Shown in pieces: positions 6,870-54,454 of a stretch of 64,000 nt of DNA. Under the pieces are notes generated by a model that was given only the letters and a program-made list of their open reading frames with translations, had not been told where the DNA came from and searched no databases. Origin of the DNA: Mesorhizobium huakuii (lineage in GTDB: Bacteria > Pseudomonadota > Alphaproteobacteria > Rhizobiales > Rhizobiaceae); NCBI RefSeq assembly GCF_014189455.1, contig NZ_CP050296.1, positions 5,390,001 to 5,454,000 on the forward strand, given 5' to 3'. Position numbers and translations under genes: made by a program. How positions within the stretch are numbered: position 1 is the stretch's first letter; every line of letters begins with the position of its first letter.

Positions 6870-7958
6870 CTACGCGCGCTTGGCTATGGCGTTTGACGGC
6901 GGGCCAACGGACCCGCGCTCGAAGATCGATGTTGGCAAAATGAGCCTTTCCGCCGGGCGCGGATCTCCCTTCAAGCGCCTGATAAGTAATTCCGCGACAC
7001 TCTTGCCAAGCGCGTAGACGGGCTGGTCGATGACGGTAATGGGTGGGGTTGTCACGCTCGTCCAGTCCGCATCATGGAAGGTGATCAGCGAAATATCCTC
7101 GGGAACCCGCAAGCCGCGCTCGCGGATCACCCTGAATATCTCCAGTGCTATGACGCTGTCGGAGGCAAGGATCGCCGTCGGCCGGTCCGGCCCGGACAGC
7201 ATCGCGTCGGCAACCCTGCGCGTTTCGATGGGGCTTGTTGCACCAAGGCGGACATAACGTTCTGGCCGATCAATTCCTGCATCCCGGCAGACGGTGAGGA
7301 AACCGTCGATGCGCTCGCGGACCGACGAGGTGTAGATTTGCCCGAGATCGCGGTACTCATGCCCTTCGGCGTCGACAGCGGTCACATAGGCGATGTTGCG
7401 GTGTCCGGCGTCGACAAGAATGCGGGTCGCCCGCATGGCGATGCCGCGATCGTCGACGGTGACGGTATCGACGTCCAGATCGGGCAGCGCCCTGTCAAGC
7501 AGGGCAAGCGGCCGGCCTGAACGATGGATGTCGCGCAGGTGTGAGATGTCACGCGATTCCGCCGGCGTGACGATCAGCCCGTCGACGCGCTTGCCGATCA
7601 ACAGCCGCACGGCTGCCTTTTCAACCTCGATCCTTTCGCCGGAGTTGGCCAGAATGACGTTGAACCCGGCTGCCCTTGCCGCGTCGCTGATGCCGCGCAC
7701 CGCGAGGCTGAAGAACGGGTTCTCGATGTCGCCGACAACCACTCCGATGATGCCGGACCGGCCGGTCGTCATGCTGCGCGCCAGCTCGTTCGGACGGTAG
7801 TCCAGTGCCTTGGCTGCGGCCATGACGTCCGCACGGATCATATCGCTGACGACGCCGTATCCGCCGAGCACGCGCGCGGCTGTCGCTTTCGATACGTTTG
7901 CCGCGCGGGCGACATCGCTGACCGTTATCGACGGGGTCTTGGGCGCGGTTCTTTTCAT
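6870..7958 (-). CDS. LacI family transcriptional regulator
   Basis: A 362-residue LacI/GalR regulator. The DNA-binding N-terminus reads ITVSDVARAANVSKATAARVLGG (about 10-32), with hinge YRPNELARSMTTGRS. The periplasmic-binding-like domain starts IIGVVVGDIENPFFS and ends with VPEDISLITFHDADWTSVTTPPITVIDQP, which is canonical. The start at 7958 leaves the two palindromes at 8019-8051 between it and the divergent ABC operon. LacI control of an amino-acid-type transporter is unusual and suggests a glycosylated or sugar-derived amine as inducer (inference). Confidence 0.9.
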   Translation of the reverse strand: MKRTAPKTPSITVSDVARAANVSKATAARVLGGYGVVSDMIRADVMAAAKALDYRPNELARSMTTGRSGIIGVVVGDIENPFFSLAVRGISDAARAAGFNVILANSGERIEVEKAAVRLLIGKRVDGLIVTPAESRDISHLRDIHRSGRPLALLDRALPDLDVDTVTVDDRGIAMRATRILVDAGHRNIAYVTAVDAEGHEYRDLGQIYTSSVRERIDGFLTVCRDAGIDRPERYVRLGATSPIETRRVADAMLSGPDRPTAILASDSVIALEIFRVIRERGLRVPEDISLITFHDADWTSVTTPPITVIDQPVYALGKSVAELLIRRLKGDPRPAERLILPTSIFERGSVGPPSNAIAKRA

Positions 7959-8018
7959 CGGATGAACGACTACAAGAGTTGTTGACGGAAGGTCAATCTG
8001 GCGATAACGATTATCAAA

Positions 8019-8051
8019 GAGACCGGTCTCAATCAATAAGAGACCGGTCTC
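8019..8051. promoter_or_regulatory. Two identical LacI-type operators
   Basis: The perfect 12-base palindrome GAGACCGGTCTC occurs at 8019-8030 and again at 8040-8051. The second extends to a 16-base palindrome at 8038-8053. Centres are exactly 21 bases apart, two helical turns, so both would present the same DNA face. The central CCGG and the position between a lacI-type gene and a transport operon fit LacI-family binding. Confidence 0.8.
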
Positions 8052-8188
8052 TTTTAGAAAATTGCGAGTCGAGAAGCATGGCGAAACGGCTCGCGCATGC
8101 CGCGGTCGCGATGGCGGGCGATGTCAGGTGCGAGGGTGCGGGCTCGACGTAATACCAACAAGAACAGACCTTCAAGTGGAGAGAAGAC

Positions 8189-38929: not shown

Positions 38930-39393
38930 GTGGACGTCGGTCTTGTCGGCCGGCTCGCCAACATCCTTCCGTCGCCAGTTTTGGAAAGTGACGGAAAGTT
39001 GGACGGCTCCATCGATCATCGCATCATCGTGTGCACGCTTTGCCGTGACGTCCCGACCGGCATCAGGTCGGGCGAAAGCCTGTGCGCCGATTTGCGCTCC
39101 CGGCTCTCGGCCCATCATCAGCCCGCCGTGGCGCATGGCTTCACGATCGAAGGCGTCGAGTGCATGGCGGGCTGCGCGCGGCCGCTGACGGTGGCCTTCC
39201 AGGCGCCGGGCAAGGCTTCCTATCTTTTCGGCTCCATCGACGCCGAGGCCGACGCCGGTGATCTCGTGCGATTTGCAAGGCTATACGCCTCGCTCGCTGA
39301 CGGCTGGTGCAATTCCGGACAACGTCCGCCGCGACTGGCGGGCAAGACGCTGGCCCGTATCCCCGGGCCGGGCAAGTTTGCGGGCAACAGCCG

Positions 39394-39397
<4 letters not shown>
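38930..39397 (+). CDS. DUF1636 metal-binding-like protein in a B12 operon
   Basis: A 155-residue DUF1636 protein. Its core has VCTLCRDVPTG (two Cys), GESLCADLRSRL and GFTIEGVECMAGCARPLTVAF (Cys-x3-Cys), a ferredoxin-like or metal-binding Cys set; then SYLFGSIDAEADAGDLVRF. The reaction is not established. GTG at 38930 closely follows GGGAGGAAAC and lies directly after the riboswitch. Its stop overlaps the start of the ATPase gene (ATGA), so it is coupled to the transporter and probably handles its cargo. Confidence 0.82.
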
Positions 39398-40182
<785 letters not shown>

Positions 40183-40230
40183 TCGAAACCCATCCGTCAT
40201 TCGACACTGTTCAACCAAGGAGCAAAATCC

Positions 40231-41178
40231 GTGAAACGTCTCGCTCTGTCGCTTGTCTTCTCGCTGCTGGCCTCAACAGCCTTCGCCTTCCCCGTCACCG
40301 TCGATAGCTGCGGCAAACCGCTGACCTTCGATGCGCCGCCCAAGCGCGCCGTCATCCATGATCTCAACATGGCCGAGATGGCCTTCGCGCTGAAGCTGCA
40401 GCCGTCAATTGTCGGCCTGACCGGCATCACCGGATGGTACAAGGTCGGCGCCGAATTCAAGGCCGAACAGGGCTCCATCCCGGAACTGGCGCCCAAATAC
40501 CCGACGCTCGAAAACCTCGTCGCAGTCGAACCCGATTTCTTCTTCGCCGGCTGGTACTATGGCATGAAGCCGGGCGGTGACGTGACGCCCGACACGCTAG
40601 CCCCGCACGGCATCAAGACGCTGGTGCTGACCGAGAGCTGCGTCCATCTCGACAAGAACCGCCCCGCCGCCTCGATGGACCTGCTCTATGGCGACGTCGA
40701 AAAGCTCGCCAAGATTTTTGGCAAGGAGGCGGACGCGGAAAAGCTTGTCTCCGGCTGGAAGGCGCAATTGGCTGACATCACCGCCAAGGTCGGCAGCGCC
40801 AAGGGGACGCGGGTGTTCCTCTATGATTCCGGTGAGGACAAGCCGTTCACCGCCGGAAAATTCGCCATCCCCAGCGCCATGATCACGGCAGCCGGCGGCG
40901 ACAACATCATGGCCGACATGGACACCAGCTGGGGCAATACGGACTGGGAAACCGTGGCGTCGCGCAATCCGCAATTCCTCATCCTGCTCGATTACCAGGA
41001 CGGCGGCGGCTACAAGAAATTGCTTGAGCTCCTGAAGGCGCATCCGGCAATGAAGGAAACGGACGCGGTCAAGAACGAGCGCTTTGTGGCGCTGCGCTAT
41101 GCCGAACTGACAACTGGACCGGCGAACATCGAGGCGATCGCCAAGATCGCCAAGGCGATGCATCCGGAAGCGTTCTGA
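40231..41178 (+). CDS. ABC substrate-binding protein, BtuF/FecB type
   Basis: A 315-residue class III (helical-hinge) binding protein. A signal peptide of about 19 residues (LALSLVFSLLASTAFAF) is followed by DSCGKPLTFDAPPKRAVIHD. Landmarks include VGLTGITGWYKVGAEFK, VEPDFFFAGWYYGM, AAGGDNIMADMDTSWGNTDWETVASRNPQFLILLDYQ. GTG at 40231 follows AAGGAG. Riboswitch control suggests B12, a corrinoid precursor or a cobalt complex as ligand. The permease gene starts at the stop codon. Confidence 0.88.
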   Translation: MKRLALSLVFSLLASTAFAFPVTVDSCGKPLTFDAPPKRAVIHDLNMAEMAFALKLQPSIVGLTGITGWYKVGAEFKAEQGSIPELAPKYPTLENLVAVEPDFFFAGWYYGMKPGGDVTPDTLAPHGIKTLVLTESCVHLDKNRPAASMDLLYGDVEKLAKIFGKEADAEKLVSGWKAQLADITAKVGSAKGTRVFLYDSGEDKPFTAGKFAIPSAMITAAGGDNIMADMDTSWGNTDWETVASRNPQFLILLDYQDGGGYKKLLELLKAHPAMKETDAVKNERFVALRYAELTTGPANIEAIAKIAKAMHPEAF

Positions 41179-42227
41179 TGCTTCTTGCCCCTGGGCATAA
41201 ATCCGGTGCGCTTTCAGGGCACAAGGCATTCGGGCTGGCGATAGTGGCGGGCGCGGTGGCGGCCGTCGCCCTCGTGCTGCTGTCGATCGCGTATAGTTCG
41301 ACGCTGATCCCGCTGACCGACGTCATCGCCTCGCTTGGCCATGCCGTCGGGTTGAACGAGCACCAGGTGTCGGGCCCGGTCGGCAAGATCGTCGTCGATC
41401 TCAGGCTGCCACGCACCATCGTGGCGGTCTGTGTCGGCGGCGGCCTCGGCACAACAGGTGCCTTGCTGCAGACGGTGACCCGCAACGATCTCGCCGATCC
41501 CTTCCTGTTCGGCCTGTCGTCGGGCGCCGCTGCAGGAGCTGTTTCCGTCATCACCGTCCTCGGCGACAGTTTCGGCATCTGGACCTTGCCGGTCGCCGCG
41601 TTCACCGGCGGCATATTGGCCGCCTGCATCGTTCTGCTGCTGGTCGCGCGGGTGCGGGGGCAGGGGCCGGAACGGCTGATCCTCGCCGGCCTTGCCGTCT
41701 CCTTCCTGTTCACCGCCCTGACCAACTATCTGGTCTTTGCCGGCGACCAGCGCGCCGCCCATTCGGTGCTGTTCTGGACGATGGGCGGGCTCGGTCTGGC
41801 GCGCTGGGACAATGTCTGGCTGGGCGCCTTGGGAGCCGGCGCTATTGCGGTTTACGGGCTGTGGAACCACCGCAGGCTGGATGCCTTCCTGGCCGGTGAA
41901 AGTGCCGCAGAAAGCCTTGGCGTGCCGGTGGCGCGGATGCGCAGGACGACGTTTCTCGTTGCCGCCTTTTCGACGGCAATTCTCGTCTCGGTCGCCGGTG
42001 TCATCGGCTTTGTCGGATTGATGATCCCGCATCTGTCGCGGCCGCTGGCCGGTCCCTTGCATCTGCGCCTGATCGCCAGCTGCGCGTTGTTCGGCGCGGT
42101 GCTGTTGCTGGCCAGCGACCTTCTGGCGCGAACCCTGCTGCCGCCGCAGGAACTGCCCATCGGCATCATCACCAGCTCGCTCGGTGCCTTCTTCGTCGTC
42201 ACGCTGGTCGTGCGAAACCGGCTCTGA
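41178..42227 (+). CDS. ABC permease, FecCD/BtuC family
   Basis: A 349-residue permease with about ten membrane segments. Family motifs include LRLPRTIVAVCVGGGLGTTGALLQTVTRNDLADPFLFGLSSGAAAGA, ESAAESLGVPVARMR (coupling loop to the ATPase) and FVGLMIPHLSRPLAG. It overlaps the binding-protein stop by one base. Together the genes at 39394-42227 form a complete importer under B12 riboswitch control; corrinoid or cobalt-chelate uptake is the best guess. Confidence 0.9.
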   Translation: MLLAPGHKSGALSGHKAFGLAIVAGAVAAVALVLLSIAYSSTLIPLTDVIASLGHAVGLNEHQVSGPVGKIVVDLRLPRTIVAVCVGGGLGTTGALLQTVTRNDLADPFLFGLSSGAAAGAVSVITVLGDSFGIWTLPVAAFTGGILAACIVLLLVARVRGQGPERLILAGLAVSFLFTALTNYLVFAGDQRAAHSVLFWTMGGLGLARWDNVWLGALGAGAIAVYGLWNHRRLDAFLAGESAAESLGVPVARMRRTTFLVAAFSTAILVSVAGVIGFVGLMIPHLSRPLAGPLHLRLIASCALFGAVLLLASDLLARTLLPPQELPIGIITSSLGAFFVVTLVVRNRL

Positions 42228-42252: not shown

Positions 42253-43188
42253 TCAGACCGTCCAGAAATAGCGCACGATGTGAAAGAAGATCGGGGCCGC
42301 GAAGACCAGGCTGTCGGTACGGTCCATCATGCCGCCATGGCCTTCGATGAGATGCCCCCAGTCCTTGACGCCCTGGTCGCGCTTGATGGCCGAGGCGACC
42401 AGCCCGCCCAGAAAACCCATCGAGCATGCGACGAAGGCGACACACGCCGCCTGCAGCGGCGAGAACGGCGTCACGAACGACAGAAGCGCGCCGAGCAGGC
42501 TTGCCGACACCAGCCCGCCGATCAGGCCTTCCCAGGTTTTCGACGGCGAGACGGTCGGCGAGAAACGGTGTTTTCCGAACAGCTTGCCGAAGATGTATTG
42601 CAGTACGTCGCTGCCTTGCACGACGATGATCAGGAAGGCGATCAGCAACAAATTGCGGCCTTCGAAGCCCGGCACGTCGAGCGTCAGCAGCGCTGGAACA
42701 TGGCTGACGCAATAGACCGAGATCATGACAGCCCATTGCTGCGCGGCGATCCGCTCGAGAAAGCGCTCGGTGTCGCCATGCAACGCGGTGATGGCCGGCA
42801 TCAGCAGGAAGCAATAGACCGGAATGAAGATGACGAAGAGGCCGTACCAGGCGGTCCACACCAGCCAGTATTGAAACGGGATGATGATGCCGAACATGCC
42901 AAGCAGCACCCAATGATCGCTGCGGCGGGTATGCGTCAGCGTCACGAATTCTCGCAGCGACGCAAACGAGATCAGCGCGAACAGGATGGTCAGCCCGTAA
43001 CGGCCGAAGAAGAAGGCGACCGTCATCAGCGCCACCATCACCCACCAGGCGTTGATGCGCTGGGTGAGATTGATCAGTGTCGAACTGAGCGGCTTCGGCG
43101 CCCGCGCCGAAAGTATTGCGGCGACGATGCTGGCAGTCGTCAGCACCACCAGCAGGCCGATGATCAGGATCGAGATGTCGTGGCGCAT
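42253..43188 (-). CDS. CdsA-like phosphatidate cytidylyltransferase
   Basis: A 311-residue membrane protein of the CDP-diglyceride synthase family (about eight membrane segments). The C-terminal signature is SPTVSPSKTWEGLIGG then KRDQGVKDWGHLIEGHGGMMDRTDSL, matching CdsA (S-x3-KR/D-x4-KDW..PGHGG..DR-D). It activates phosphatidate with CTP. It most resembles the YnbB type and is the last gene of a six-gene lipid operon on the minus strand; a dedicated supply of CDP-lipid to the CDP-alcohol transferase at 47461 is likely. Confidence 0.9.
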   Translation of the reverse strand: MRHDISILIIGLLVVLTTASIVAAILSARAPKPLSSTLINLTQRINAWWVMVALMTVAFFFGRYGLTILFALISFASLREFVTLTHTRRSDHWVLLGMFGIIIPFQYWLVWTAWYGLFVIFIPVYCFLLMPAITALHGDTERFLERIAAQQWAVMISVYCVSHVPALLTLDVPGFEGRNLLLIAFLIIVVQGSDVLQYIFGKLFGKHRFSPTVSPSKTWEGLIGGLVSASLLGALLSFVTPFSPLQAACVAFVACSMGFLGGLVASAIKRDQGVKDWGHLIEGHGGMMDRTDSLVFAAPIFFHIVRYFWTV

Positions 43189-43850
43189 CAATCGTCTCGT
43201 TCGGGACGCGGGTTGAGCGCCAGAAGCGTGGCGTGGGCTCGGTCGAGGAAGGCGCGGCGCTCTTCGCCCGGGGCCACCGTCACCGGCGCGCCGAAGACGA
43301 CGCGGCACAAAAGCGGCACCGGCAGGAACTGGCCCTTGGGCAGCACGCGCGACATGTTCTCGATCCAGCACGGGATCAGCTCGACCTCAGGCCGCGCCAT
43401 CGACAAATTGTAGAGCCCGGAGCGGAAGGGCAGCAGCGGCTCCTCGGTCATGTTGCGGGTGCCTTCGGGAAACAGGATCAGCGAGTGGCCCTGGTCGAGG
43501 ACGGACAGCATGATCTCGATCGGGTTTTCCTCGGGCTTCGTCCATTGCCGGTTGATGAGCACGGACGACAGCATGTCCTCGGCGATAAAGCGGCGCAGCC
43601 GCGATTTTCCCCAATACTCGCCGGCTGCCACGGCATGGGTGATCGCGCGCTCCTTTTCGCTGAGGCACGCCGACAAGAGGATGAAGTCGCCATGGCTGGT
43701 GTGGTTCGCGAAGTAGATGCGCTGCCGGTCCGACGGCATGCTGCCGTTCCAGATCGGGCGCACCCCGGTCACCACCCAGGCCAGCGCCGAGAGTCCGACG
43801 GAGGTTACCGTCTGCAGCAGCGTAAAAGTCTTTAATGCAAGCTTGCTCAT
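43188..43850 (-). CDS. 1-acylglycerol-3-phosphate acyltransferase (PlsC-like)
   Basis: A 220-residue membrane-bound acyltransferase. Motif I is NHTSHGDFILL (catalytic HTSHGD, H-x4-D), motif III LILFPEGTRNM, with VPLLCRVVFGAPV at motif IV. It acylates lysophosphatidate or a similar alcohol. Its stop overlaps the ATG of the CdsA-like gene (ATGA), so the two are translationally coupled, giving a local route from lyso-lipid to CDP-activated lipid in this operon. Confidence 0.88.
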   Translation of the reverse strand: MSKLALKTFTLLQTVTSVGLSALAWVVTGVRPIWNGSMPSDRQRIYFANHTSHGDFILLSACLSEKERAITHAVAAGEYWGKSRLRRFIAEDMLSSVLINRQWTKPEENPIEIMLSVLDQGHSLILFPEGTRNMTEEPLLPFRSGLYNLSMARPEVELIPCWIENMSRVLPKGQFLPVPLLCRVVFGAPVTVAPGEERRAFLDRAHATLLALNPRPERDD

Positions 43851-44290
43851 CGCGGTGCCCAGAATCCGGCCGCCAAAAGCATCACCACAAACAGGCCAAA
43901 GGCTATGCGTTGCCTGGTCAGCAAACGGCGCGTACCGGCCATGCGCTCGTCCAGCGAACGTGTGGAGGACGGCAGCGGTTTCAGGCGCATGCGCGCCAGC
44001 ATGCCGTCCACCGCGGCACCAGCGGAAGCCTCGTCGTCATGGCTGGCCATCAGCCGGAACAGCAGCGCATCGAATGCCAGCAAAGCCGACAGCGCCAGCA
44101 CGGCGACCGCGCTCACGGCAGTGAGCGACAGCGCGAGGGCCGCGGGCAAGGTCTCGAAGGCGCCGCGCGCCGAGGCGGCCAAGGGCGCCAGCACGTTCGC
44201 GGCCACGACAACCGCCGCCGGCCATGCGGCCTGCCGCATCAGCATGCGAGCGAAGCGATCGGTGCTTTCCTGATAGGCATTGCCGGTCAT
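43847..44290 (-). CDS. Small membrane protein in the lipid operon
   Basis: A 147-residue protein, not recognised. Three hydrophobic segments are visible: about 20-40 (AAWPAAVVVAANVLAPLAA), 45-75 (LPAALALSLTAVSAVAVLALSALLAF) and 128-145 (IAFGLFVVMLLAAGFW). A charged loop with LPSSTRSLDERMAGTRRLLT lies between. It overlaps the genes on both sides by four bases, so it belongs to the operon and may be a partner of one of the enzymes. Confidence 0.75.
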   Translation of the reverse strand: MTGNAYQESTDRFARMLMRQAAWPAAVVVAANVLAPLAASARGAFETLPAALALSLTAVSAVAVLALSALLAFDALLFRLMASHDDEASAGAAVDGMLARMRLKPLPSSTRSLDERMAGTRRLLTRQRIAFGLFVVMLLAAGFWAPR

Positions 44291-45627
44291 GATGCCGCCC
44301 GCTCGGTGGTCTCGACCAGATGAACCGGCCGGCCGGCGGCCTTAAGCATCTCGCGGGCCAGGGCCGGTGTCCTGGCCCTGCCGGTCGCCACCAGCCATTC
44401 GGCGACAACGCAGGCGCTGCGCTGGAAACCGAGCGCGCAGCAGACCAGCACCGTGCCGTCGCGGCGCGCTTTCTCCAGCGCGCCGGCCGCCTGTTGCCGC
44501 ATCATCACGGGCGGCGGCAACAGGTCGACCATCGGCAAGCTGATCCAGCGGCACGTCGCTCCCGCCGGCCTTTCAAGTTCGGCGGCGAGGTCGATGACCG
44601 TGCCGAAGCCGTTGGCCTCGCTTGCCGAGGGAAAGCGTCCGAGAAAGACGCCGTCGGCCACCGCGACCTGCGGAACAAGCTCGCGCGTCCATGCCCATAT
44701 GTTTGCCCTGGCGCCGAGACGGTAAGGCAAGAGCAGGATGCGGCTTGCGAGCGTGATGCTGCCATCCACGGATTTCTGGAACACTTTTGCGCCGGCTCCG
44801 GCATAGGCGAAGGCAACGATGGCCAGCGCCAAAGCCGGCCAAAGCAAGATGAGTGCGACGGCGGAAAGGAAGGAGCCGAACGCGGCGCCGGCCAGAGCAA
44901 GGACGCTACCCAGTCCATAGAACAGCGCCAGCCGGCGGGCTTTCGCGTCGCTGGTCAGCCGGAAGCCCGAAAACGGCAATTCGCCGCCGCGCGGAAACAG
45001 CCAGAGCGCGAAAAAGCCGAGCAACGCTCCGGTCGGGATATCGATGAAATGATGCTGCCAGGTCGTCAGCACCGAAGCGCCGATCAGGAAGCACCAGCCA
45101 TGCCAGAGCGGCAGCAGAAAGCCACCGAGCCGGTGGCGCCAATGGTCCCAGATGATCACCAGCAGGGCGATGTGCAGCGAGGGTGCCTGGTTGAATGGCT
45201 TGTCGAAACCGCCAAGCACGGCAAACATGAAGCCCGGCAGGCCGGTCGTTTGCGGCCGCACGAATGTCGCGGTCAGCGGGAACAGGATGAAGCAAGTGAC
45301 GGCGACGATCTGCGCGGTGAGATAGCGGCCGGCCAGGCGGTCGACCCCTTGCCGGTTGTCGTTGAGCAGCAGCGACAGGCCGTAGAACAGATTGATCGAC
45401 CAGTAGGGCACGATGGTCCAGGCGACGAACGGGATGCTGTGCTCCCAGGCGAACACGATGCTGCCGACGTCGTCGCGCCGCGACGCCAGCCAGTTGGCGA
45501 AGCCATAGGTCAGGTAGAAGAACGGCGCCAGGAACGCCAGCCACAAAGCTGCCCTGACGACCACCCGGCTGTAGGGTTCGGCGGCGACGATGGCTGCAGA
45601 TTGCGAAGCGTCAGGGTCAGTCGGCAT
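44287..45627 (-). CDS. PAP2-type lipid phosphatase fused to a dual-specificity phosphatase domain (YnbD-like)
   Basis: A 446-residue fusion. The N-half (about 25-300) is a multispanning PAP2/AUR1-type domain: FNQAPSLHIALLVIIWDH and WQHHFIDIPTGALLGF carry the catalytic His/Asp set. The C-half (about 315-446) is a cytoplasmic dual-specificity phosphatase with VCCALGFQRSACVVAEW (C-x5-R loop). E. coli YnbD has the same domain pair. It probably removes phosphates from a lipid or inositol-phosphate head group made by this operon (inference). Confidence 0.85.
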   Translation of the reverse strand: MPTDPDASQSAAIVAAEPYSRVVVRAALWLAFLAPFFYLTYGFANWLASRRDDVGSIVFAWEHSIPFVAWTIVPYWSINLFYGLSLLLNDNRQGVDRLAGRYLTAQIVAVTCFILFPLTATFVRPQTTGLPGFMFAVLGGFDKPFNQAPSLHIALLVIIWDHWRHRLGGFLLPLWHGWCFLIGASVLTTWQHHFIDIPTGALLGFFALWLFPRGGELPFSGFRLTSDAKARRLALFYGLGSVLALAGAAFGSFLSAVALILLWPALALAIVAFAYAGAGAKVFQKSVDGSITLASRILLLPYRLGARANIWAWTRELVPQVAVADGVFLGRFPSASEANGFGTVIDLAAELERPAGATCRWISLPMVDLLPPPVMMRQQAAGALEKARRDGTVLVCCALGFQRSACVVAEWLVATGRARTPALAREMLKAAGRPVHLVETTERAAS

Positions 45628-45639
45628 GCCTGGTTGGTC

Positions 45640-47424
45640 CTACAGGCGCCGTGCGACCGAGACGGTGAAGATGCCCCACTGGTCGATGCGCTGGTCGAGT
45701 TTCTCGAAACCGGCGGCTTCGACGAGCTGGTCCATTTCACCTTGCGTGCGCCGCCGCATGACCCAGGCCTGGCCGCCGCGATGCGAGGTCAGGCTGCGCG
45801 CGATCATCTCGAGCTGCGGATGCCAGGGCTGGTTGGTGTAGAGGAGCAGGCTGCCCGGCTGCATGGCGCGGGCCAGTCCGCCGAGCGAACGGGCGATCAT
45901 CGCATTGTCGGAGAACAGTTCGTAGAGGCCGGAGACGATGGCGAGGTCCGGCGCCGGATCGATCGCCGCGAGCATGTCGGCATCGAAAGCGTCGGCGCGC
46001 CGGAACGAGACGCTGGCCGGCAATTGCCGCTCGGCGATCAGCTTGCGGCCAAGCTCGACATTGAGGTCGGAATAATCCTGCAGGCGTACGCTTGCCGGCT
46101 GGTCGGGGCTCTTCACGATGGCATCGAGGACATAGCGGCCGTGGCCGGCGGCGATGTCGAGAATGTGGGCCGGCCGGCTGGCGGCCTTCAGCGTCGTCAG
46201 CGCGGCGCCGATGAGTTCTTCGAGATGCAGCTTGCGCTGGCGGATGCCGCGCCAGCCGATGGCCTCCAGGAAGATGCGGTCGACGAAGCGGCCAAGCGGC
46301 GTCAGCCCGCGGGCGTCGTTCTCGTAGACATAGTCCAGCGTCGAGCCGGAATCGAAACCGGTGGTGACGCCGGCCTTCATGCCCGACGAGACCCAGGCGC
46401 CCATGCGGATGGAGGCGCGGCTGAAGGCCCAATAGAGGCCTTTGGGCGACAACAGGTCGAGAGGCGAGGCAAGCCTGTCGGCCTCGTCGCGCGTGTAGCC
46501 GGCAATATCCGCCTGCCTCAGGTCGACCGGTGCGTCCGGCGCCGTGAACTGCCTGGCCAGGAACGGCCGGATCAGGTCGAGGGCCTGCGCCCGATCGCGC
46601 TCGCCCAGCGTGTCGTGGAAGAAACCCGGCAACACATGGCGTTCCTTGGTCCGGCTGCCGAGATTGACGAAGAATTCGTGCTGCGGGCCGTGGCGCACCA
46701 CCCAGTCGCTTCCCGAAAGCAGAAGCTGCGTCGGCACGGTGATGGCGCGGGCGTCGGCAACGATGCGGGCGGCGTGCTGGTAGAGTTCGACCAGGATGTT
46801 GGAGGCGATCGGCCGCGTGATCAGCGGATCGCTCTCGAACGAGGCGATGCGCACGGGGTCATGGGTCAGGAATTTCGCCTTGACGTAGGAGTTGACGAAA
46901 AAACGGCCCTTGAGCCTTTGCCAGAGCGCGATGCCCTCCTTGGCGAAGGGCACGTAGAGCTTGACCGAAAAGGCCGGCGAGGCCAGCACCATGGCGCGCA
47001 GTTTCGGCGCATAATCGTGCACCCAGGCGGCGGCAAGCACGGCGCCGAAGGACTGCGCGATCAGCGCAATGTCCTGCATGGCGAAGCCGTCCCTGGCGGC
47101 GATCTCGCGCATGAAGCAGTCTATGTCGCGCACCAGCGCCGAGAAGGACGGAGCATAGCCGCGTTCGCCGGATGAACGGCCGTTGCCGCGGGCATCCCAG
47201 GCGTAGAAGGCGTGATCCGGCATGTGCAGTTCGTCGACGAGATGGGCCATGCGGCCGCCATGTTCATGGCCGCGATGGAAGAGCACCACCGCGCCGTTGG
47301 CATCGGCGGAGGCCGCCGGCCAGAACCGGTAGAAGATCTCGGTCCCGTCATGGCTGTGGAAGACACGCTCTTGTGCCTGCCGGCCAAGGTTTTCGGCAGC
47401 CGCTGCAATCGGTCCGTGCATCAT
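45640..47424 (-). CDS. Bifunctional alpha/beta hydrolase-SAM methyltransferase (YnbC-like)
   Basis: A 594-residue fusion resembling E. coli YnbC. The N-half (about 1-310) is a serine hydrolase of the monoglyceride-lipase type: LFHRGHEHGGR, AWDARGNGRSSGERGY, IAQSFGAVLAAAW (nucleophile Ser) and LPGFFHDTLGE (His). The C-half (about 380-594) is a class I methyltransferase: ILDIAAGHGRYVLDAI (motif I), LQDYSDLNVELG and FRRADAFDADML. It may remodel or methylate the operon's lipid. Start at 47424 follows GAGGGAAAG. Confidence 0.87.
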   Translation of the reverse strand: MMHGPIAAAAENLGRQAQERVFHSHDGTEIFYRFWPAASADANGAVVLFHRGHEHGGRMAHLVDELHMPDHAFYAWDARGNGRSSGERGYAPSFSALVRDIDCFMREIAARDGFAMQDIALIAQSFGAVLAAAWVHDYAPKLRAMVLASPAFSVKLYVPFAKEGIALWQRLKGRFFVNSYVKAKFLTHDPVRIASFESDPLITRPIASNILVELYQHAARIVADARAITVPTQLLLSGSDWVVRHGPQHEFFVNLGSRTKERHVLPGFFHDTLGERDRAQALDLIRPFLARQFTAPDAPVDLRQADIAGYTRDEADRLASPLDLLSPKGLYWAFSRASIRMGAWVSSGMKAGVTTGFDSGSTLDYVYENDARGLTPLGRFVDRIFLEAIGWRGIRQRKLHLEELIGAALTTLKAASRPAHILDIAAGHGRYVLDAIVKSPDQPASVRLQDYSDLNVELGRKLIAERQLPASVSFRRADAFDADMLAAIDPAPDLAIVSGLYELFSDNAMIARSLGGLARAMQPGSLLLYTNQPWHPQLEMIARSLTSHRGGQAWVMRRRTQGEMDQLVEAAGFEKLDQRIDQWGIFTVSVARRL

Positions 47425-47460
47425 GGTCTTTCCCTCTGGCGGCATGGCGAGCCCCTGTGC

Positions 47461-48069
47461 TCAGCTGGCGCTGCCAATAAGACCGGCGCGTATCCGGTTT
47501 ATGGCGGTCAGCAGTGAAAGCGTTGCCATGGCCGGAAACACAAACGCCGCGATGGATGATGGCCACAGCCCGGCGGCGCACAGGACCGCCACCACGCCCA
47601 GCGCCAGCGCCCTGTCGCTCTTGCCAAACGGCCCGGCATAGTTGCGTCCGATGCCGGCGGCGATGCCGAGCACACCGGCGAACTCGGTCAGCACCGCGGT
47701 GATGGCGAAAGCGATGACGCCCCATGCGCTGAACAGCGTAAAGGCGGCGAAAGGCAGGATCAGCGCCAGGTCCGAAACGACATCGCAAATCTCGTTCAGA
47801 TACATGCCGAGTGTCGAAGCTTGGCCATGTTCGCGCGCCAGCATGCCATCCACGGCGTTGAGCGCCATGCGCACGAACAGCACCACGGGAATGAGCAGCA
47901 GCGGCCAGCGCCATTCGTGCAGGATCGCGATGGCCGCTCCTGCCGCGATCGACATCAGGGCCGCCAGTATGGTGATGCTGTTGGCGGTGACGCCGATTGC
48001 CGCCAGCCGGTTGACCAGCGGCCGCAGTCTTCCCTGGAAAGCCGGCTTGAGCGCGTAAAGCGTCGGCAT
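47461..48069 (-). CDS. CDP-alcohol phosphatidyltransferase (YnbA-like)
   Basis: A 202-residue membrane enzyme that joins an alcohol to a CDP-lipid. The active-site signature DG-x2-AR-x8-G-x3-D-x3-D appears as VDGMLAREHGQASTLG then MYLNEICDVVSD, so the usual first Asp after G-x3 is Asn; this LNE variant is shared by the YnbA-type subgroup as I remember it. About five membrane segments. First gene of the six-gene operon, divergent from a MarR gene. The acceptor alcohol is unknown. Confidence 0.87.
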   Translation of the reverse strand: MPTLYALKPAFQGRLRPLVNRLAAIGVTANSITILAALMSIAAGAAIAILHEWRWPLLLIPVVLFVRMALNAVDGMLAREHGQASTLGMYLNEICDVVSDLALILPFAAFTLFSAWGVIAFAITAVLTEFAGVLGIAAGIGRNYAGPFGKSDRALALGVVAVLCAAGLWPSSIAAFVFPAMATLSLLTAINRIRAGLIGSAS

Positions 48070-48329: not shown

Positions 48330-48803
48330 ATGGTTTCAGATGGCATCGACAGATTGGGATTTTTGATCCACGACGTGCAACGCCTGATGCGCAAGCGTTT
48401 CGAGACGCGCGCCAGTGGGCTTGGCCTGTCCTCGGCGCAATGGCGCCTCATGGTGCGTGTCGCCAAGGAGGAGGGAGTCACCCAGGCCCGGCTCGCTGAA
48501 CTGCTCGAAATCGAGCCGATCAGTGTCTCGCGCCTTGTCGACCGGATGGAAGAGGGCGGCTGGATCGAGCGCCGCGCCGACGCCGCCGACCGCCGCGTGC
48601 GCATGATTTTCCCGACCGCCAAGGCAAGCGCTGCCTATGCCGAGGTCAAGAGCCTCGCCGGCGAAGTCTATGAGGAGTCGCTTGTCGGCGTTTCTCCGGA
48701 GGACCGTCGCGTCCTGATCAGGGCGCTCGATGCGATGGCACAGAATCTGGCGGACGGCGATACCTCGGAAAAAGTCGAGCCTACGAAAGGCGCAGCAGCA
48801 TGA
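48330..48803 (+). CDS. MarR family regulator of the efflux operon
   Basis: A 157-residue MarR regulator. The winged helix is clear (LSSAQWRLMVRVAKEEGVTQARLAELLEIEPISVSRLVDRMEEGG, about 35-80, and wing RRADAADRRVRMIF). N- and C-terminal helices form the dimer and ligand pocket. It is encoded directly before emrA, whose ATG overlaps its stop (ATGA). Phenolic or drug ligands probably relieve repression at the palindrome upstream. Confidence 0.9.
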   Translation: MVSDGIDRLGFLIHDVQRLMRKRFETRASGLGLSSAQWRLMVRVAKEEGVTQARLAELLEIEPISVSRLVDRMEEGGWIERRADAADRRVRMIFPTAKASAAYAEVKSLAGEVYEESLVGVSPEDRRVLIRALDAMAQNLADGDTSEKVEPTKGAAA

Positions 48804-49978
48804 ACGCGGTAGCCAAGATAGACGAAAACGCCGCCAAGGTGGAGATGGAGGCGCCGGCCCAACCGGTTGCCGTTCCTGTTGCGGTCGCTCCTCCCATGGA
48901 GCCGGTCCCGGCGCCGAAGAAGAAGCGCCGCATGGGCCGCTTCTTCTTGATGTTTGCCTTGCCGGCGGCGCTGATTATCGGCGGCGGCTATGTCTGGGTG
49001 ACCGGTGGACGCTATCAGGAAACGGAAAACGCCAATCTGCAGCAGGCCAAGGTGTCGATCGCCTCGGACACGGCGGGCCGCATCGTCCAGGTTGCGATAG
49101 CGGACCATCAGATGGTCAAGCAGGGCGATCTTCTGTTCACAATCGACCCCGAGCCTTACCGGATCGCGCTTGCCCAGGCCGACGCCGCGGTTGCCGCGGC
49201 GCGCCTCAACGTCGAGCAGCTGCGCGCCGCCTACAGCCAGTCGACGGCGCAGGAGAAGTCCGCCAGCAGCGAGGTCGACTACGCCCAGTCGCAATATGAC
49301 CGCGCCGCCGATCTCGCGCAGAAGGGCATCAACGCCAAATCGTCGCTGGATGAAGCCCGCAACGACCTCGACAAGGCAAAGCAGCAGGTCGCCGTCGCCC
49401 AGCAAGGCATCATCAGCGCCAAGGCCGCACTCGGCGGCAACCCCGACATCGAAACCGACAAGCATCCGACCGTGATGGCCGCGCTCGCCGCGCGCGACAA
49501 GGCCGCCTACGACCTGGCGCGGACTACGGTGAAGGCGCCCGCCGATGGCGTCATCTCCCAGGCCTCGTCCTTCAAGGTCGGCCAGTATGTCGGCTCCGGC
49601 ACGCCGCTGTTTTCGCTGGTCGAGACCAACGACACCTGGATCGATGCCAATTTCAAGGAAACCCAGCTCACCAACATGAGGCCAGGCCAGAAGGCCGAGA
49701 TCGTCGTCGACACCTATCCGGGCAAGACCTTCGAAGCGACGGTCAAGGCGATCGGTGCGGGAACGGGTGCTGAATTCTCGCTGCTGCCCGCCCAGAACGC
49801 CACCGGCAACTGGGTCAAGGTCACGCAGCGCATTCCGGTGCGCCTGGAGCTGACCGATCCCGACGCCAAAATGGCGCTGCGGACCGGCATGAGCGCCTCT
49901 GTCACCGTCGACACCGGCGTCGCCCGCGGTTTTCCCGCAATATTCGGTCACGCCACGGCTGGCGAGCCCGCGCAGTAA
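48800..49978 (+). CDS. emrA: HlyD/EmrA-type membrane-fusion protein
   Basis: A 392-residue periplasmic adaptor. The N-terminus is a Pro-rich cytoplasmic tail, then one membrane anchor at about 48-68 (FFLMFALPAALIIGGGYVWV). A split lipoyl domain (AGRIVQVAIADHQMVKQGDLLFTID and VKAPADGVIS) flanks a long coiled-coil hairpin rich in Ala/Gln (about 125-215). The beta-barrel part includes NDTWIDANFKETQLTNMRPGQKAEI. It links the inner-membrane exporter at 50288 to an outer-membrane channel encoded elsewhere. Confidence 0.9.
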   Translation: MNAVAKIDENAAKVEMEAPAQPVAVPVAVAPPMEPVPAPKKKRRMGRFFLMFALPAALIIGGGYVWVTGGRYQETENANLQQAKVSIASDTAGRIVQVAIADHQMVKQGDLLFTIDPEPYRIALAQADAAVAAARLNVEQLRAAYSQSTAQEKSASSEVDYAQSQYDRAADLAQKGINAKSSLDEARNDLDKAKQQVAVAQQGIISAKAALGGNPDIETDKHPTVMAALAARDKAAYDLARTTVKAPADGVISQASSFKVGQYVGSGTPLFSLVETNDTWIDANFKETQLTNMRPGQKAEIVVDTYPGKTFEATVKAIGAGTGAEFSLLPAQNATGNWVKVTQRIPVRLELTDPDAKMALRTGMSASVTVDTGVARGFPAIFGHATAGEPAQ

Positions 49979-50287
49979 AGTCAGCGGAAGCCCGCGGCGG
50001 CCAGGCGGGTGGAAGTGGATAGCAGGGATTGGTCTGATGGGAGGAGTGGGAAGGATCAGCGTTTGGTTCGGGCCGCGTCGCGGCCAGGCCGAAATCTGAA
50101 ATCTTCGTGACGGACCCTTCGGTCCTCATGTTTCCGGGCGGCAGGCATCCGCTCATCAGAGACTTTCGATCGATGTAACCCCCACATCGATAATCGCGTC
50201 CCACCGCGATGAGGGTCTTCAACGGAAGGCGTTGCCGCCCGGACACCCTATGTACACGTTTTTGTTACCTGCTGGAAGTTCCGCATC
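49979..50287 (+). other. emrA-emrB intergenic region with two hairpins
   Basis: These 309 bases hold no gene. ATCGATGT (50169-50176) pairs with ACATCGAT (50184-50191), and ATCGCG (50193-50198) pairs with CGCGAT (50205-50210), a tandem pair of stems. A GGACC-CTTC-GGTCC mini-hairpin lies near 50113. The gap is large for an emrA-emrB pair, so emrB may have its own promoter or be controlled through RNA structure. Confidence 0.45.
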
Positions 50288-51823
50288 ATGAGCACGCCAG
50301 AACCTTTCAAGGAAGTGCCGCATCGCGGCCTGATCACGGTTGCGCTCATGCTGGCGACGATCATGCAGGCGCTCGACACCACCATCGCTAACGTCGCGCT
50401 GCCGACGATGACCGGCGATCTCGGTGCCTCCCCGGACAACATCAACTGGGTGCTGACATCCTATATCGTGGCAGCCGCCATCATGACGCCGGTCACCGGC
50501 TGGCTCGCCGACCGTTTCGGCCGCAAGGAATTGTTCCTGACGGCGGTGGTCGGCTTCACCATCTTCTCCATGCTGTGCGGCCTGGCATGGAGCCTTGAAA
50601 CCATTGTGCTGTTCCGGCTGATGCAAGGCGTGTTCGGCGCCGCCATCGTGCCGCTGTCGCAGACATTCCTGCTCGACATCAACCCCAAGGAGCGTCACGG
50701 CCAGGCCATGGCCATCTGGGGTGCCGGCATCATGCTGGGACCGATCCTGGGCCCGACGCTAGGCGGCTGGCTGACCGACAATTTCAACTGGCGCTGGGTG
50801 TTCTTCATCAACCTGCCGGTCGGCATCGTCGCCTTCCTTGGCATGGCGGCCTATCTGCCGGCCGTTGCCCGGCGGGTGCGCAGCTTCGACTTCTTCGGCT
50901 TTGCCATGATATCGCTCGGCGTCGGCGCGCTGCAGCTGATGCTGGACCGCGGCGGCGAGGTCGACTGGTTTTCCTCGGTCGAGATCTGGATCGAACTCGG
51001 CCTGGCCATCACCGGCTTCTGGGTGTTCATCATTCACACAGTGACGGCGGAACATCCCTTCATCGATCCGAAGATCTTCCTCGACCAGAATTTCGTGACC
51101 GGCCTGGCGTTCATCTTCGTCATGGGTGTGCTCATCCTGGCCTCGATGTCGCTGCTGCCGCCAATGCTGTCGACCATTTTCGGCTATCCGACCATCACCA
51201 TCGGTGTCGTCATAGGTCCGCGCGGTATCGGCACGATGGTTTCGATGCTCGTCGTCGGGCGGCTCATGGGCAAGATCGACGCCAGGATTCTCGTCGTCAT
51301 CGGCTTTCTGCTGACCGCCCAGTCGCTCTACACCATGGCGAGCTTCACCCCGCAGATGGATAACTGGCTGATCATCAGCTCCGGCGTCATCCAGGGCCTG
51401 GGGATGGGAATGGTGTTCGTGCCGCTGTCGACGGTTGCCTTCGCCACGCTCGACGCACGCTACCGCACCGACGCGACCGCGCTGTTCAGCCTGGTGCGCA
51501 ATCTTGGCTCGTCGATCGGCGTCTCGGTCGTGACGGTGCTCTTGGTACGCAACACGCAGATCAACCACGCCGAGCTTTCAGCCTTCATCAACCCGTTCAA
51601 TCCTAACCTCTGGGCGGTCTCGCCGGCGGCCGCGGGCGGCGATCCGATGGCGCTGTCGGAGGTCGATCGCATGGTCAATCTCCAGGCGATGATGATCTCC
51701 TACGTCAACGACTTCAAAATCCTGATGGTGATGACGCTGCTCGCCATCCCGTTCGTCTTCCTGCTGCGCAAGCCGAAGGCTGCGCCGGCCGGCGGCGGCG
51801 CACCTGCAGCGCATATGGACTAG
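50288..51823 (+). CDS. emrB: DHA2 family MFS drug exporter (EmrB-like)
   Basis: A 511-residue proton-drug antiporter with 14 predicted membrane segments. Signatures include LDTTIANVALPTMTGDLG (DHA2 motif D1), SYIVAAAIMTPVTGWLADRFGRKELF (motif A), FRLMQGVFGAAIVPLSQTFLLD (motif B) and GPILGPTLGGWLTDNFNWRWVFFINLPVG (motif C). It works with the EmrA-type adaptor at 48800 to expel hydrophobic toxicants. No ribosome site is strong; AGTTCCGCATC precedes the ATG. Confidence 0.93.
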   Translation: MSTPEPFKEVPHRGLITVALMLATIMQALDTTIANVALPTMTGDLGASPDNINWVLTSYIVAAAIMTPVTGWLADRFGRKELFLTAVVGFTIFSMLCGLAWSLETIVLFRLMQGVFGAAIVPLSQTFLLDINPKERHGQAMAIWGAGIMLGPILGPTLGGWLTDNFNWRWVFFINLPVGIVAFLGMAAYLPAVARRVRSFDFFGFAMISLGVGALQLMLDRGGEVDWFSSVEIWIELGLAITGFWVFIIHTVTAEHPFIDPKIFLDQNFVTGLAFIFVMGVLILASMSLLPPMLSTIFGYPTITIGVVIGPRGIGTMVSMLVVGRLMGKIDARILVVIGFLLTAQSLYTMASFTPQMDNWLIISSGVIQGLGMGMVFVPLSTVAFATLDARYRTDATALFSLVRNLGSSIGVSVVTVLLVRNTQINHAELSAFINPFNPNLWAVSPAAAGGDPMALSEVDRMVNLQAMMISYVNDFKILMVMTLLAIPFVFLLRKPKAAPAGGGAPAAHMD

Positions 51824-51853: not shown

Positions 51854-52918
51854 TCAAATGCGGCTCCCCGACGCCGGGTCGAAGAAATGCACGGTCGACT
51901 TTCGCAGGGAAAGCATGACGGTCTCATCCGGTCTCAAAATGACGCGCTCGCGCAGCACGCAGACGAGTTCGTGGCCCGCCATTTCGACAGAAAGATGCGT
52001 CTCCGCGCCCGTGGGCTCGACGACAATTACCCTGGCCGCTGCGCCGGTTGCGCTGTCGATGTGAATGTCTTCCGGACGCACGCCCAGCACGAGGCGCCGC
52101 CCTGCGGCTGTGGCAGGAATGGCTGACAGCGGGATAATCGATCCGTCGTCCAGTTCGAGGCCGGGATGAGGATTGTCGCGCGCTGTTCCTTCGATGAAAT
52201 TCATCGCCGGCGATCCAAGGAATCCGGCGACGAACATATTGACCGGCCGGTCGTACAGGTCGAGCGGCGAGCCGATCTGCTCGATCCTGCCGCCATTGAG
52301 CACGACGATCTTGTCGGCCATCGTCATCGCCTCGATCTGGTCGTGTGTGACATAGACGATGGTCGATTTGAGACGCTGGTGCAGCGCCTTGATCTCGGAG
52401 CGCATCTGCACGCGCAGCTTGGCGTCGAGGTTGGAGAGCGGCTCGTCGAACAGGAATACCTTGGGATCGCGCACGATGGCGCGGCCCATGGCGACGCGTT
52501 GGCGCTGGCCGCCCGACAACTGGCGCGGATAGCGCGCGAGCAGCGGCTGCAGCCCCAGGATCGATGCCGCCGTGTCTACCTTTTCCTTGATCTCGGCTTT
52601 CTTGGCGCCGGCGAGTTCGAGGGCGAAACCCATATTTTGCGCGACGGTCATCTGCGGATAGAGCGCATAGTTCTGGAACACCATGGCGATGTCCCGTTCC
52701 TTCGGCTGCAGATGATTCACCACTCGCTCGCCGATCGATATCTCGCCGCCCGAGATGGTTTCGAGCCCGGCAATCATGCGCAGCAGGGTCGATTTTCCGC
52801 AGCCCGAAGGGCCGACGAGGATGACGAACTCGCCATCCTCAATGTCGACGCTGACCCCATGGATCACGGGGGTCGCACCATAGGACTTCTTCACGTCGAC
52901 GATCTGGACAGAAGACAT
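51854..52918 (-). CDS. Sugar ABC transporter ATPase (UgpC/MsmK type)
   Basis: A 354-residue CUT1 ATPase. It has Walker [10 protein letters not shown] (near 38), [15 protein letters not shown], signature [19 protein letters not shown], Walker [14 protein letters not shown] and switch [12 protein letters not shown]-terminal TOBE/OB regulatory domain begins around 240 ([11 protein letters not shown]). I start at 52918; the longer open frame continuing upstream belongs to the frameshifted glycoside-hydrolase gene. Last gene of the CUT1 operon. Confidence 0.93.
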
Positions 52919-52934
52919 CTTGTAGCCCCGTTTA

Positions 52935-54454
52935 CTAGCGCCGTGGCCTGGCGCGGATGGCTTGATATGGCTTGCCGGGTAACTCGACCCCGAAAGCAGC
53001 GTCCGCCTTGCCCCCCGCGCACGACCGAGCCATGGCGTGTTGGATGCGGGATCGGCGCCGCCACTTTCCTCGCCGGCGTCACGGTCATCTCCCAGGCGTC
53101 GATCACATCGACGTCGTAGTCGCCATCTTCCAGCGGCAGGCCGGTCGACCAGATGACCGGCTGATGCTCGCCAAGATAGATGTAGCGAAGATCGCCGTCT
53201 CTGGCGCCGGAGACCCGACTCCACGGCCAGGCACCGTTGTGGCCCATCGGCTCCAACCCATTGCTGACGTCCTCTTCGATGAGGTTGCGCAGGAAGCCGA
53301 TCCGCTTCCACGCCTCGCCGTGAAGCCGGCCGCCCTTGGCCCACCAGATTAGATCCTGGGGGGTGCATGTAGGTTTCGCCATGCCCGGCATAGCCGCCGC
53401 GCATGACGGTGAGCCAGAAGCGGTGCACCAGTTCTTCGGCACTGATGTTGCCCCATGGGAAGACGATGTTGCCTTCATATTCAGGTTCGTCGTTGACGAC
53501 CGGCTTGCCGTAGGCGTCGCGCCATTCGGGCGTGCGTTTCACATCCCAGTTCTGGATGCAGACATGGCTGACCCATGGCTTGCGGTGGTCGAAATTCATC
53601 GACTGCTCACCATTGTGGATCGATTTCAGATGTTGGTAGGGGTCGTTTTCCTCGAGGATATGGAAGTAGCGGTCCCACTGCGCCATCGGCTTGGTGTCGA
53701 GCAGGAAATCGTACTCGTTGGCCAACGACCACCAGACGTTGCGGTAGGCGGCAAGCCGTGCGGCGAGGTAGGCGACATAGCGGAAATCCTGGGCCGCGCT
53801 CATGTTGGCGTAACCCCAACGGTCATAGGGATGGAAGATGATGATATCGGCTTCGATGCCGAGATCGCGCAACTCGCCGACCTGCGTCTCGAAATGGCGG
53901 AATGCAACAGGGTTCGGCCGGTCGAAGTCTTCCTTGCCGTCCGGCCCGGTCTCGAAGATCGCATACAGTGCGGGATTGGTGTTGAAGGGATAGTCCTTCG
54001 GGAAGACGCCCATGCGTAACTTGTTGAAACGTGCCGTCTTCAACGTCGCCAGCGTCTCGGCCTGCATGTCGAGCGGCTGGTGCGTCCAGGCATAGCAAGT
54101 GGTGCCGAACGGGAAGTAGGGCGTGCCGTCGGCGTAGGCGAAATGGAATTTGTTGCGCACGTGCACCGGGCCGTGGTTGCCGGACGAAGGTGCCACCGCC
54201 TCGAAGGCGCCGCTCTTGCCCGCCAGTGACGGAATGGTGGAGTGCGTGATGTAGCTCCAGCTGCCTTCATTGTCCGGCATGAAACGGATGCGATAGGTGC
54301 CGTCGCCATCGTAGAAGCCGGGAACCGCGACGCTGCGGCTGGCTTGCGAAAAACTGGCGGAGAACTCGATCTCGGCAAAGGGATTGCCACCCGCGGGCCC
54401 CTTCAGTTCGATCTCGAATATGTCCCATTTCTCGACTGTCGTGCCGTCGGCCAT
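52935..54454 (-). pseudogene. Glycoside hydrolase with DUF5060 N-domain, two frameshifts
   Basis: About 505 residues if repaired. An N-terminal DUF5060 beta-sandwich (about 1-90) is followed by a clan-A-like TIM barrel: [14 protein letters not shown], general acid in [11 protein letters not shown], nucleophile in [11 protein letters not shown], and a C-terminal DUF5605-like domain. No signal peptide, so it acts in the cytoplasm on imported oligosaccharides. One extra base in the G-run 53358-53363 and one in the C-run 53011-53016 break the frame; correcting both yields a smooth protein ending [16 protein letters not shown]. Both are six-base runs, so sequence error is likely. Confidence 0.78.

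Follow-up and report, generated by a model that had tools for sequence, protein, structure and literature searches.

A conserved six-gene operon of Mesorhizobium huakuii, orthologous in part to Escherichia coli ynbABCD, as a candidate pathway for a methylated phospholipid

The operon analyzed here lies on the minus strand of a 64,000-nt stretch of DNA (the window; positions 5390001-5454000) in the 8.4 Mb genome of Mesorhizobium huakuii, and comprises six genes transcribed in the order A-C-D-S-P-B (42253-48069; Table 1; gene coordinates are window positions). The list of open reading frames (ORFs) and the Pfam searches confirmed the presence of all six ORFs with the order, strand, and domain types given in a preliminary description of the window. 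The genes are closely packed, with gaps of 15 bases between A and C and 12 bases between C and D, followed by overlaps of 4 bases (D/S), 4 bases (S/P), and 1 base (P/B); the preliminary description gave 3-4 bases for all overlaps among the last four genes, which is correct for D/S and S/P but not for P/B. Its domain assignments hold for A, C, P, and B, which score above the Pfam cut-offs, whereas both domains of D score below them. Among named organisms, the YnbC relatives closest to the window protein are found in Mesorhizobium, with identity of up to 96%.

Table 1. Genes, domains, and altered codons of the operon (window positions; aa, amino acids)
Feature	Position	Strand	Description
Gene A (ynbA orthologue)	47461-48069	minus	CDP-alcohol-transferase homologue, 202 aa; PF01066
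Gene A, N71 codon	47857-47859		place of hallmark D1
Gene A, N92 codon	47794-47796		place of hallmark D3
Gene C (ynbC orthologue)	45640-47445	minus	fusion of lipase-like alpha/beta hydrolase and PF12147 methyltransferase, 601 aa
Gene C, hydrolase domain	about 46594-47301		
Gene C, methyltransferase domain	about 45646-46572		PF12147
Gene D (ynbD orthologue)	44287-45627	minus	fusion of PAP2/lipid-phosphotransferase-like membrane domain and dual-specificity-phosphatase domain, 446 aa
Gene D, membrane domain	about 44782-45582		
Gene D, phosphatase domain	about 44290-44679		
Gene S	43847-44290	minus	small membrane protein, 147 aa; unnamed conserved family
Gene P	43188-43850	minus	PlsC-type acyltransferase, 220 aa; motifs NHTSHGD and FPEGTR
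Gene B (ynbB orthologue)	42253-43188	minus	CdsA-type cytidylyltransferase, 311 aa; PF01148

Judged by sequence, A, B, C, and D are orthologues of E. coli YnbA, YnbB, YnbC, and YnbD, encoded together, with pairwise identities to the K-12 proteins of 45, 38, 54, and 38%, respectively, which bears out the relationship proposed earlier. The articles cited below for the ynb genes and for SMSr were available to us as excerpts. A literature search covered the four ynb genes, PF12147, the motif of CDP-alcohol transferases, and the genes in combination, with bioRxiv preprints and the majority of subscription journals outside its scope; among the matches listed there was no product for YnbA, YnbC, or YnbD. 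The earlier statement that the lipid product is undefined thus fits these three proteins better than YnbB, for which a review reports synthesis of CDP-diacylglycerol (CDP-DAG) in vitro (PMC7018664) and which has been studied in relation to the glycolipid MPIase. Disruption of ynbC results in diffuse LtrA in E. coli, with polar effects possible (PMC2435150), ynbA appears in the table of a cyclic di-GMP screen (PMC13031359) and is down after 15 days of 239Pu (PMC10134817), and ynbC appears in a persistence table (PMC13313352), in each case with no mechanism given in the excerpt; the excerpt of PMC8590670 names no ynb gene. A match to ynbABCD is present in 4579 of 5426 E. coli genomes, including 4242 in which at least 80% is covered at one place.

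Gene S belongs to a conserved family; the window protein gave no Pfam match, nor did any of ten aligned members at E 0.1. D74, L77, F78, D95, L98, R111, R116, G119, and L123 are invariant in that alignment, and a profile built in this analysis found S in 93 of the 109 loci scanned. Gene B scores 226.6 bits with PF01148 (cut-off 24) and matches the solved CdsA structure 4q2g (E 1e-15); K269-R270, K275-D276, G283-G286, D289-R290, and D292 are kept in 81 aligned sequences and correspond to the KR, KD, GHGG, DR, and D residues that we take to be the CdsA signature. Gene P reaches 58.5 bits with PF01553 (cut-off 23), and its sole solved-structure match is the 1-acyl-sn-glycerol-3-phosphate acyltransferase 5kym (E 1.5e-5). 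Its residues N49, H50, D55, and F127-R132, kept in 79 aligned sequences, cover H-x4-D and FPEGTR, presumably the motifs of PlsC-type acyltransferases.

The two halves of C score 218.5 bits with Hydrolase_4 (cut-off 27) and 472.6 bits with PF12147 (cut-off 21), the hydrolase being nearest to monoacylglycerol lipases. S132, D247, H277, D430, and A432-R437 are kept in at least 97% of 99 sequences, and by fold family D430 and A432-R437 would form the S-adenosylmethionine-binding loop of the PF12147 domain. Both domains of D are sub-threshold (DSPc, 24.7 bits with a PF00782 cut-off of 33.5; PAP2_3, 21.1 bits with a cut-off of 27); the C-x5-R loop with an upstream Asp and the dual-specificity-phosphatase fold are both present in the phosphatase half. 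The NCBIfam model PRK12361 matches residues 235-421 of D, spanning the last membrane helices and the phosphatase domain (75.3 bits, cut-off 505), which indicates that a different family of longer proteins contains a related phosphatase half. PAP2 proteins carry the motifs K-x6-RP, PSGH, and SR-x5-H-x3-D; D proteins have PSLH and H192-x3-D196 in 97 of 97 sequences, with P117 at the Lys place of motif 1 and V186 at the Arg place of motif 3 in the window protein. The sole whole-domain structural match of the membrane domain among the matches listed is human SMSr (sphingomyelin-synthase-related protein), and this apparent likeness to a head-group transferase is new. As far as alignments tell, the catalytic residues are intact in B, in P, in both halves of C, and in the phosphatase half of D.

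Gene A scores 34.2 bits with PF01066 (cut-off 22), and its CDP-alcohol phosphatidyltransferase (CAPT) fold was confirmed, the closest folds being phosphatidylinositol-phosphate synthases (PIPS). The CAPT hallmark motif, D-x2-D-G-x2-A-R-x7,8-G-x3-D-x3-D (PROSITE PS00379, quoted in PMC9385802), does not occur in YnbA: D1 and D3 are replaced by Asn (N71 and N92) in 39 of 39 aligned YnbA proteins, which leaves two of the four hallmark metal-binding aspartates and the signature Asn-x2-Asp-Gly and Asn-Glu. For this reason YnbA, on its sequence, is a CAPT homologue with an altered motif and not a canonical member. Each of the five paralogues encoded in the same genome has Asp at both places (L123-L127; L126 and L127 with other spacing). 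The Asn/Asn-Glu motif recurs in A', encoded in a second lipid operon, P-B-A', found at three congeneric loci (L159, L160, and L161) and one Rhizobium-type locus (L156); A' also lacks the Arg of the hallmark motif. A tree of 39 YnbA proteins, four A' proteins, and four own-genome controls places YnbA and A' on one side of a 92/93 branch, a weak grouping in view of its long branches. This new and unexplained change at a putative catalytic site is the most novel element of the operon. The YnbA copy of an E. coli plasmid (L152, 5827-6432), kept in the 39-sequence alignment and in the tree and left out of one further alignment, resembles YnbA over its first two thirds and not over its last third, which by eye looks out of frame.

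The PIPS-like fold and the best curated profile, that of archaetidylinositol-phosphate synthase (AIPS; NF040950, 80.7 bits), would suit a pathway in which phosphatidylinositol phosphate from YnbA is the substrate of YnbD, which converts it to a (methylated) phosphatidylinositol by dephosphorylation. We regard this product as very improbable: the NF040950 score is under half of the cut-off of 180, that of NF045883 is 38 with a cut-off of 170, YnbA has Gly opposite K135 of MtPIPS, and inositol-1-phosphate synthase (PF07994) had no match in the M. huakuii genome, in a search that was positive in 5 of 14 control genomes, E. coli not among them. The PF07994 negative and the sub-threshold equivalog scores are what lowered it. 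An ordinary head group would be obtained if YnbA were a second phosphatidylglycerol-phosphate synthase using glycerol-3-phosphate and YnbD the matching phosphatase, with phosphatidylglycerol added or remodelled and methylation or acyl editing on top; this we consider unlikely.

Conservation of the gene order was scored by tblastn and with the S profile in 99 loci, all sought through C. Eighty of them come from one scan (the best 80 of 468 confirmed relatives, all Rhizobiales), and the count therefore leans on close relatives. A-C-D-S-P-B occurs in order on one strand in 70 of the 99. The other 29 comprise six loci with the same set and A divergent, one with P-B divergent (L117), 15 of a Rhizobium type with divergent A followed by C-D-S, four cut by contig ends, E. 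coli K-12 (A-B-C-D), L118 (A-C), and L119 (A-C-P-B). In all five Rhizobium-type genomes checked, of the 15 such loci, a separate P-B pair lies elsewhere in the genome. A adjoins C in 99 of 99 loci. Outside the family of the window genome 17 genomes had a match, and 15 loci were fetched (G232 and G290 are absent from these); the full A-C-D-S-P-B order is found in 12, the others being one locus each with P-B divergent, A-C-P-B, and A-C. The distribution is patchy, with PF12147 in 22 of 299 genomes of a sample of the phylum, and sets may be dispersed: D lies about 43 kb away in G176, G242 has B elsewhere in the genome and gave, at the thresholds used, no match to D or to P, and a Burkholderia plasmid carries A-C-D-S with P-B divergent. 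The linkage exceeds chance; it is conserved both in the whole sample (70/99) and outside the family (12/15), which was the point on which the preliminary description had staked its reading. Ordinary cdsA, plsC, and pgsA paralogues without linkage are ruled out by gene order and co-occurrence. Phage cargo was rejected, as a search of 50,697 phage records at E 1e-20 gave no relative of YnbC; at E 1e-40, a relative was found in 30 of 72,556 plasmid records, several of which are chromosome-sized.

Since the loci were sought through C, its presence in each of them is given, and the unbiased test is a search of the genus with A alone. Each protein was searched separately in 146 congeneric genomes: C was found in 91, which are also the genomes that have A. 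S occurs in 90 of these (not in G394) and in none of the other 55, and B, at E 1e-60, in 90 of the 91 (not in G436). One congeneric genome lacking the operon (G348; L162, about 7667-8122) retains a remnant ORF in which the beginning of A is fused in frame to the closing part of B; judged by its sequence, it looks like a deletion scar left by the loss of the whole unit in one internal event.

Smaller sets are found farther away. Fusobacterium vincentii has C-A-B (L150), and Pseudanabaena has A-B-P with a 314-aa PF12147 protein without the hydrolase domain (L151). Among the sets seen, which were sought through C, the A, B, and methyltransferase genes appear to be the most persistent parts, and the P-B-A' trio does without C. 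In a Kosakonia cowanii plasmid record (L149, 4931-10656), beside rep and ilvC, a PF12147 protein ends a row of genes for acyl carrier protein (ACP), ketosynthase (KS), MaoC, FabG, and a hydrolase; its own hydrolase domain lacks the serine and the HRGHEH motif, and its methyltransferase is kept. The methyltransferase thus outlasts the fused hydrolase, standing alone in Pseudanabaena. These variants bear on a remodelling or turnover cycle, in which C would deacylate lipids, P would re-acylate them, the membrane domain of D would free diacylglycerol, and P and B would return it to CDP-DAG. Such a cycle would agree with the monoacylglycerol-lipase-like hydrolase of C and with the reported hydrolysis of several phospholipids by SMSr, the listed match of the D membrane domain (PMC7988496), but the methyltransferase is kept where the hydrolase is missing (Pseudanabaena) or degenerate (Kosakonia), and recycling leaves it without a role. 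We therefore find the cycle distinctly improbable.

A further explanation starts from YnbB. Overproduction of YnbB raises MPIase, YnbB cannot complement the loss of CdsA (PMC6362211), and it is reported to restore MPIase and not bulk phospholipid synthesis (PMC6362211, PMC7018664). YnbB, perhaps with YnbA, could accordingly join a sugar phosphate to CDP-DAG, yielding a pyrophosphate-linked, MPIase-type glycolipid (GlcNAc-PP-diacylglycerol), and the altered metal site of YnbA might suit an anionic nucleophile. Against this, a ynbB knockout showed no significant change in MPIase in the excerpt available (PMC6362211), the gene for YnbB lies with those for a methyltransferase, an acyltransferase, and a phosphatase fusion, and 55 of 146 congeneric genomes have neither A nor C at the thresholds used, which is odd for the backup of an essential lipid. 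The gene neighbors of YnbB and the absence of the set from these 55 genomes fit a separate pathway better than such a backup, and we consider an MPIase-type product quite unlikely.

We propose instead that the operon encodes a self-sufficient pathway devoted to a methylated phospholipid of low abundance, derived from CDP-DAG, a reading to which we assign a probability of about 0.5. A dedicated lipid pathway was already suggested in the preliminary description and gains support from orthology, linkage, and the co-occurrence of A and C in the same 91 genomes; the novel head group that it suggested, and methylation of the lipid itself, are more conjectural. What is observed are the genes and their domains, the intact catalytic motifs of B, P, C, and D (phosphatase half), the orthology to the ynb genes, the linkage, and the co-occurrence. 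In the proposed route, P would acylate lysophosphatidate to phosphatidate, and B would convert phosphatidate to CDP-DAG reserved for this route, a step that relies on analogy with the reported in vitro activity of E. coli YnbB (PMC7018664, in excerpt). A would then exchange CMP for an alcohol, probably phosphorylated (X-phosphate), giving phosphatidyl-X-phosphate, from which the phosphatase domain of D would remove the phosphate to leave phosphatidyl-X. The PF12147 domain of C may methylate the product or its head group in the last step, the C hydrolase and the transferase-like membrane domain of D could alter acyl chains or transfer or cleave off the phospho-X group, and S is probably a scaffold. 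We infer from the domains all substrates, the order of the steps, the identity of X, the phosphorylated acceptor of A, and methylation as the finish. Such a pathway would be a variant of CDP-DAG-based phospholipid synthesis, a known kind of pathway.

Several points weigh against this proposal. The lipid itself is so far a prediction from the genes. YnbA lacks two hallmark metal ligands and, on its sequence, may not be a working canonical transferase. In the alignment, only R155 and R195 among the PIPS acceptor-site residues have counterparts in YnbA: Gly stands opposite K135 and S132, Val opposite Y133 and R94, a gap opposite R137, and Lys opposite R152, a residue called strictly conserved in PIP synthases (PMC9385802). 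With these residues mostly changed, a phosphorylated acceptor for A is weakly supported. The phosphatase domain of D resembles protein phosphatases at least as closely as lipid phosphatases. Thirteen of the 55 congeneric genomes that lack A and C still have a B-type gene, which is 59-61% identical in 12 and a fragment in one (G348). Three of the 12 contexts were read (L159-L161); each is a P-B-A' trio in a stretch that gave no match to C, D, or S by tblastn, so that a set of A-like, B, and P genes exists without the methyltransferase. Some sets manage without D and P (no match in G242), B (no match in G436, likewise at the thresholds used), or local P and S (K-12). Because one YnbC relative, whose hydrolase is degenerate, lies in a fatty-acid-synthase-like operon, PF12147 may act on acyl groups. 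The grade given above takes into account that several PIPS acceptor-site residues are not kept and that the presence of C in the 99 loci is by construction.

More speculatively, YnbA and A' could form a distinct class of CDP-lipid transferases, with a YnbB-type partner nearly always adjoining or in the same genome. They would perform a transfer undescribed for the superfamily in the literature seen, through another metal arrangement or onto phosphate or an unusual acceptor, and E. coli, many other Proteobacteria, at least one Fusobacterium, and one cyanobacterium would thus make an overlooked class of phospholipids. We offer this as a doubtful, tentative conjecture.

The surroundings of the operon were inspected by eye. 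Divergent MarR-type regulator-like and EmrA/EmrB-type efflux-like genes (48330-51823, plus strand) begin 260 bases from the start of A, and convergent siderophore- or cobalamin-type ABC transporter-like genes for an ATPase, a binding protein, and a permease (39307-42227, plus strand) end 25 bases short of B. Farther away, an 866-aa ORF (51854-54454, minus strand) apparently joins a glycosidase-like protein to an ABC-transporter ATPase; what would be its natural continuation seems to lie in an ORF that overlaps it (52891-53478), which makes a frameshift or sequencing error likely. When the ORFs of 23 representative loci were compared, with a crude choice of ORFs in G+C-rich DNA and otherwise no profile search of the flanks, the flanking family that recurred across distant loci proved to be LysR-type regulators (5 of 5 checked); we read nothing into them, since their places and strands vary and the family is large.

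The finding is real, and its support is stronger than a reading of the sequence alone could give. Beyond the preliminary description, it adds the altered metal site in YnbA, the apparent likeness of the YnbD membrane domain to a head-group transferase, S as a conserved family, the smaller K-12 set, and the published work on YnbB. The six-gene set turns ynbABCD, present in most E. coli, into a testable pathway, with P and S among its genes, a methyl label, and two YnbA residues to work with. YnbB, so far read as an MPIase backup, gains a possible alternative role, and S represents an additional, unnamed family of small membrane proteins that accompany the gene set.

Compared with known systems, YnbA resembles prokaryotic PIPS but has Asn at D1 and D3 and differs in most other acceptor-site residues; the curated PIPS/AIPS models score it below cut-off, in a genome without an inositol-phosphate synthase match. 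Gene B is far over the PF01148 cut-off and keeps the residues of the catalytic half of CdsA, and it matches the solved structure; in contrast to CdsA, E. coli YnbB does not complement a cdsA knockout, its N-terminal half is reported, in the excerpts, to have no significant homology to that of CdsA, and B is encoded alongside A, C, S, and P. D differs from SMSr and the PAP2 superfamily in the fusion of its membrane domain to a dual-specificity-phosphatase domain and in a PAP2_3 score under the cut-off. The Kosakonia protein shares the methyltransferase domain of C (379.4 bits) but has a hydrolase without nucleophile and HRGHEH motif and lies in the fatty-acid-synthase-like operon ACP-KS-MaoC-FabG. 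A further close counterpart is ynbABCD of E. coli K-12, in which all four genes are orthologous and adjacent, arranged as A-B-C-D without local P or S, whereas the window has A-C-D-S-P-B; the E. coli plasmid variant (L152), A-B-P-C, has kept P.

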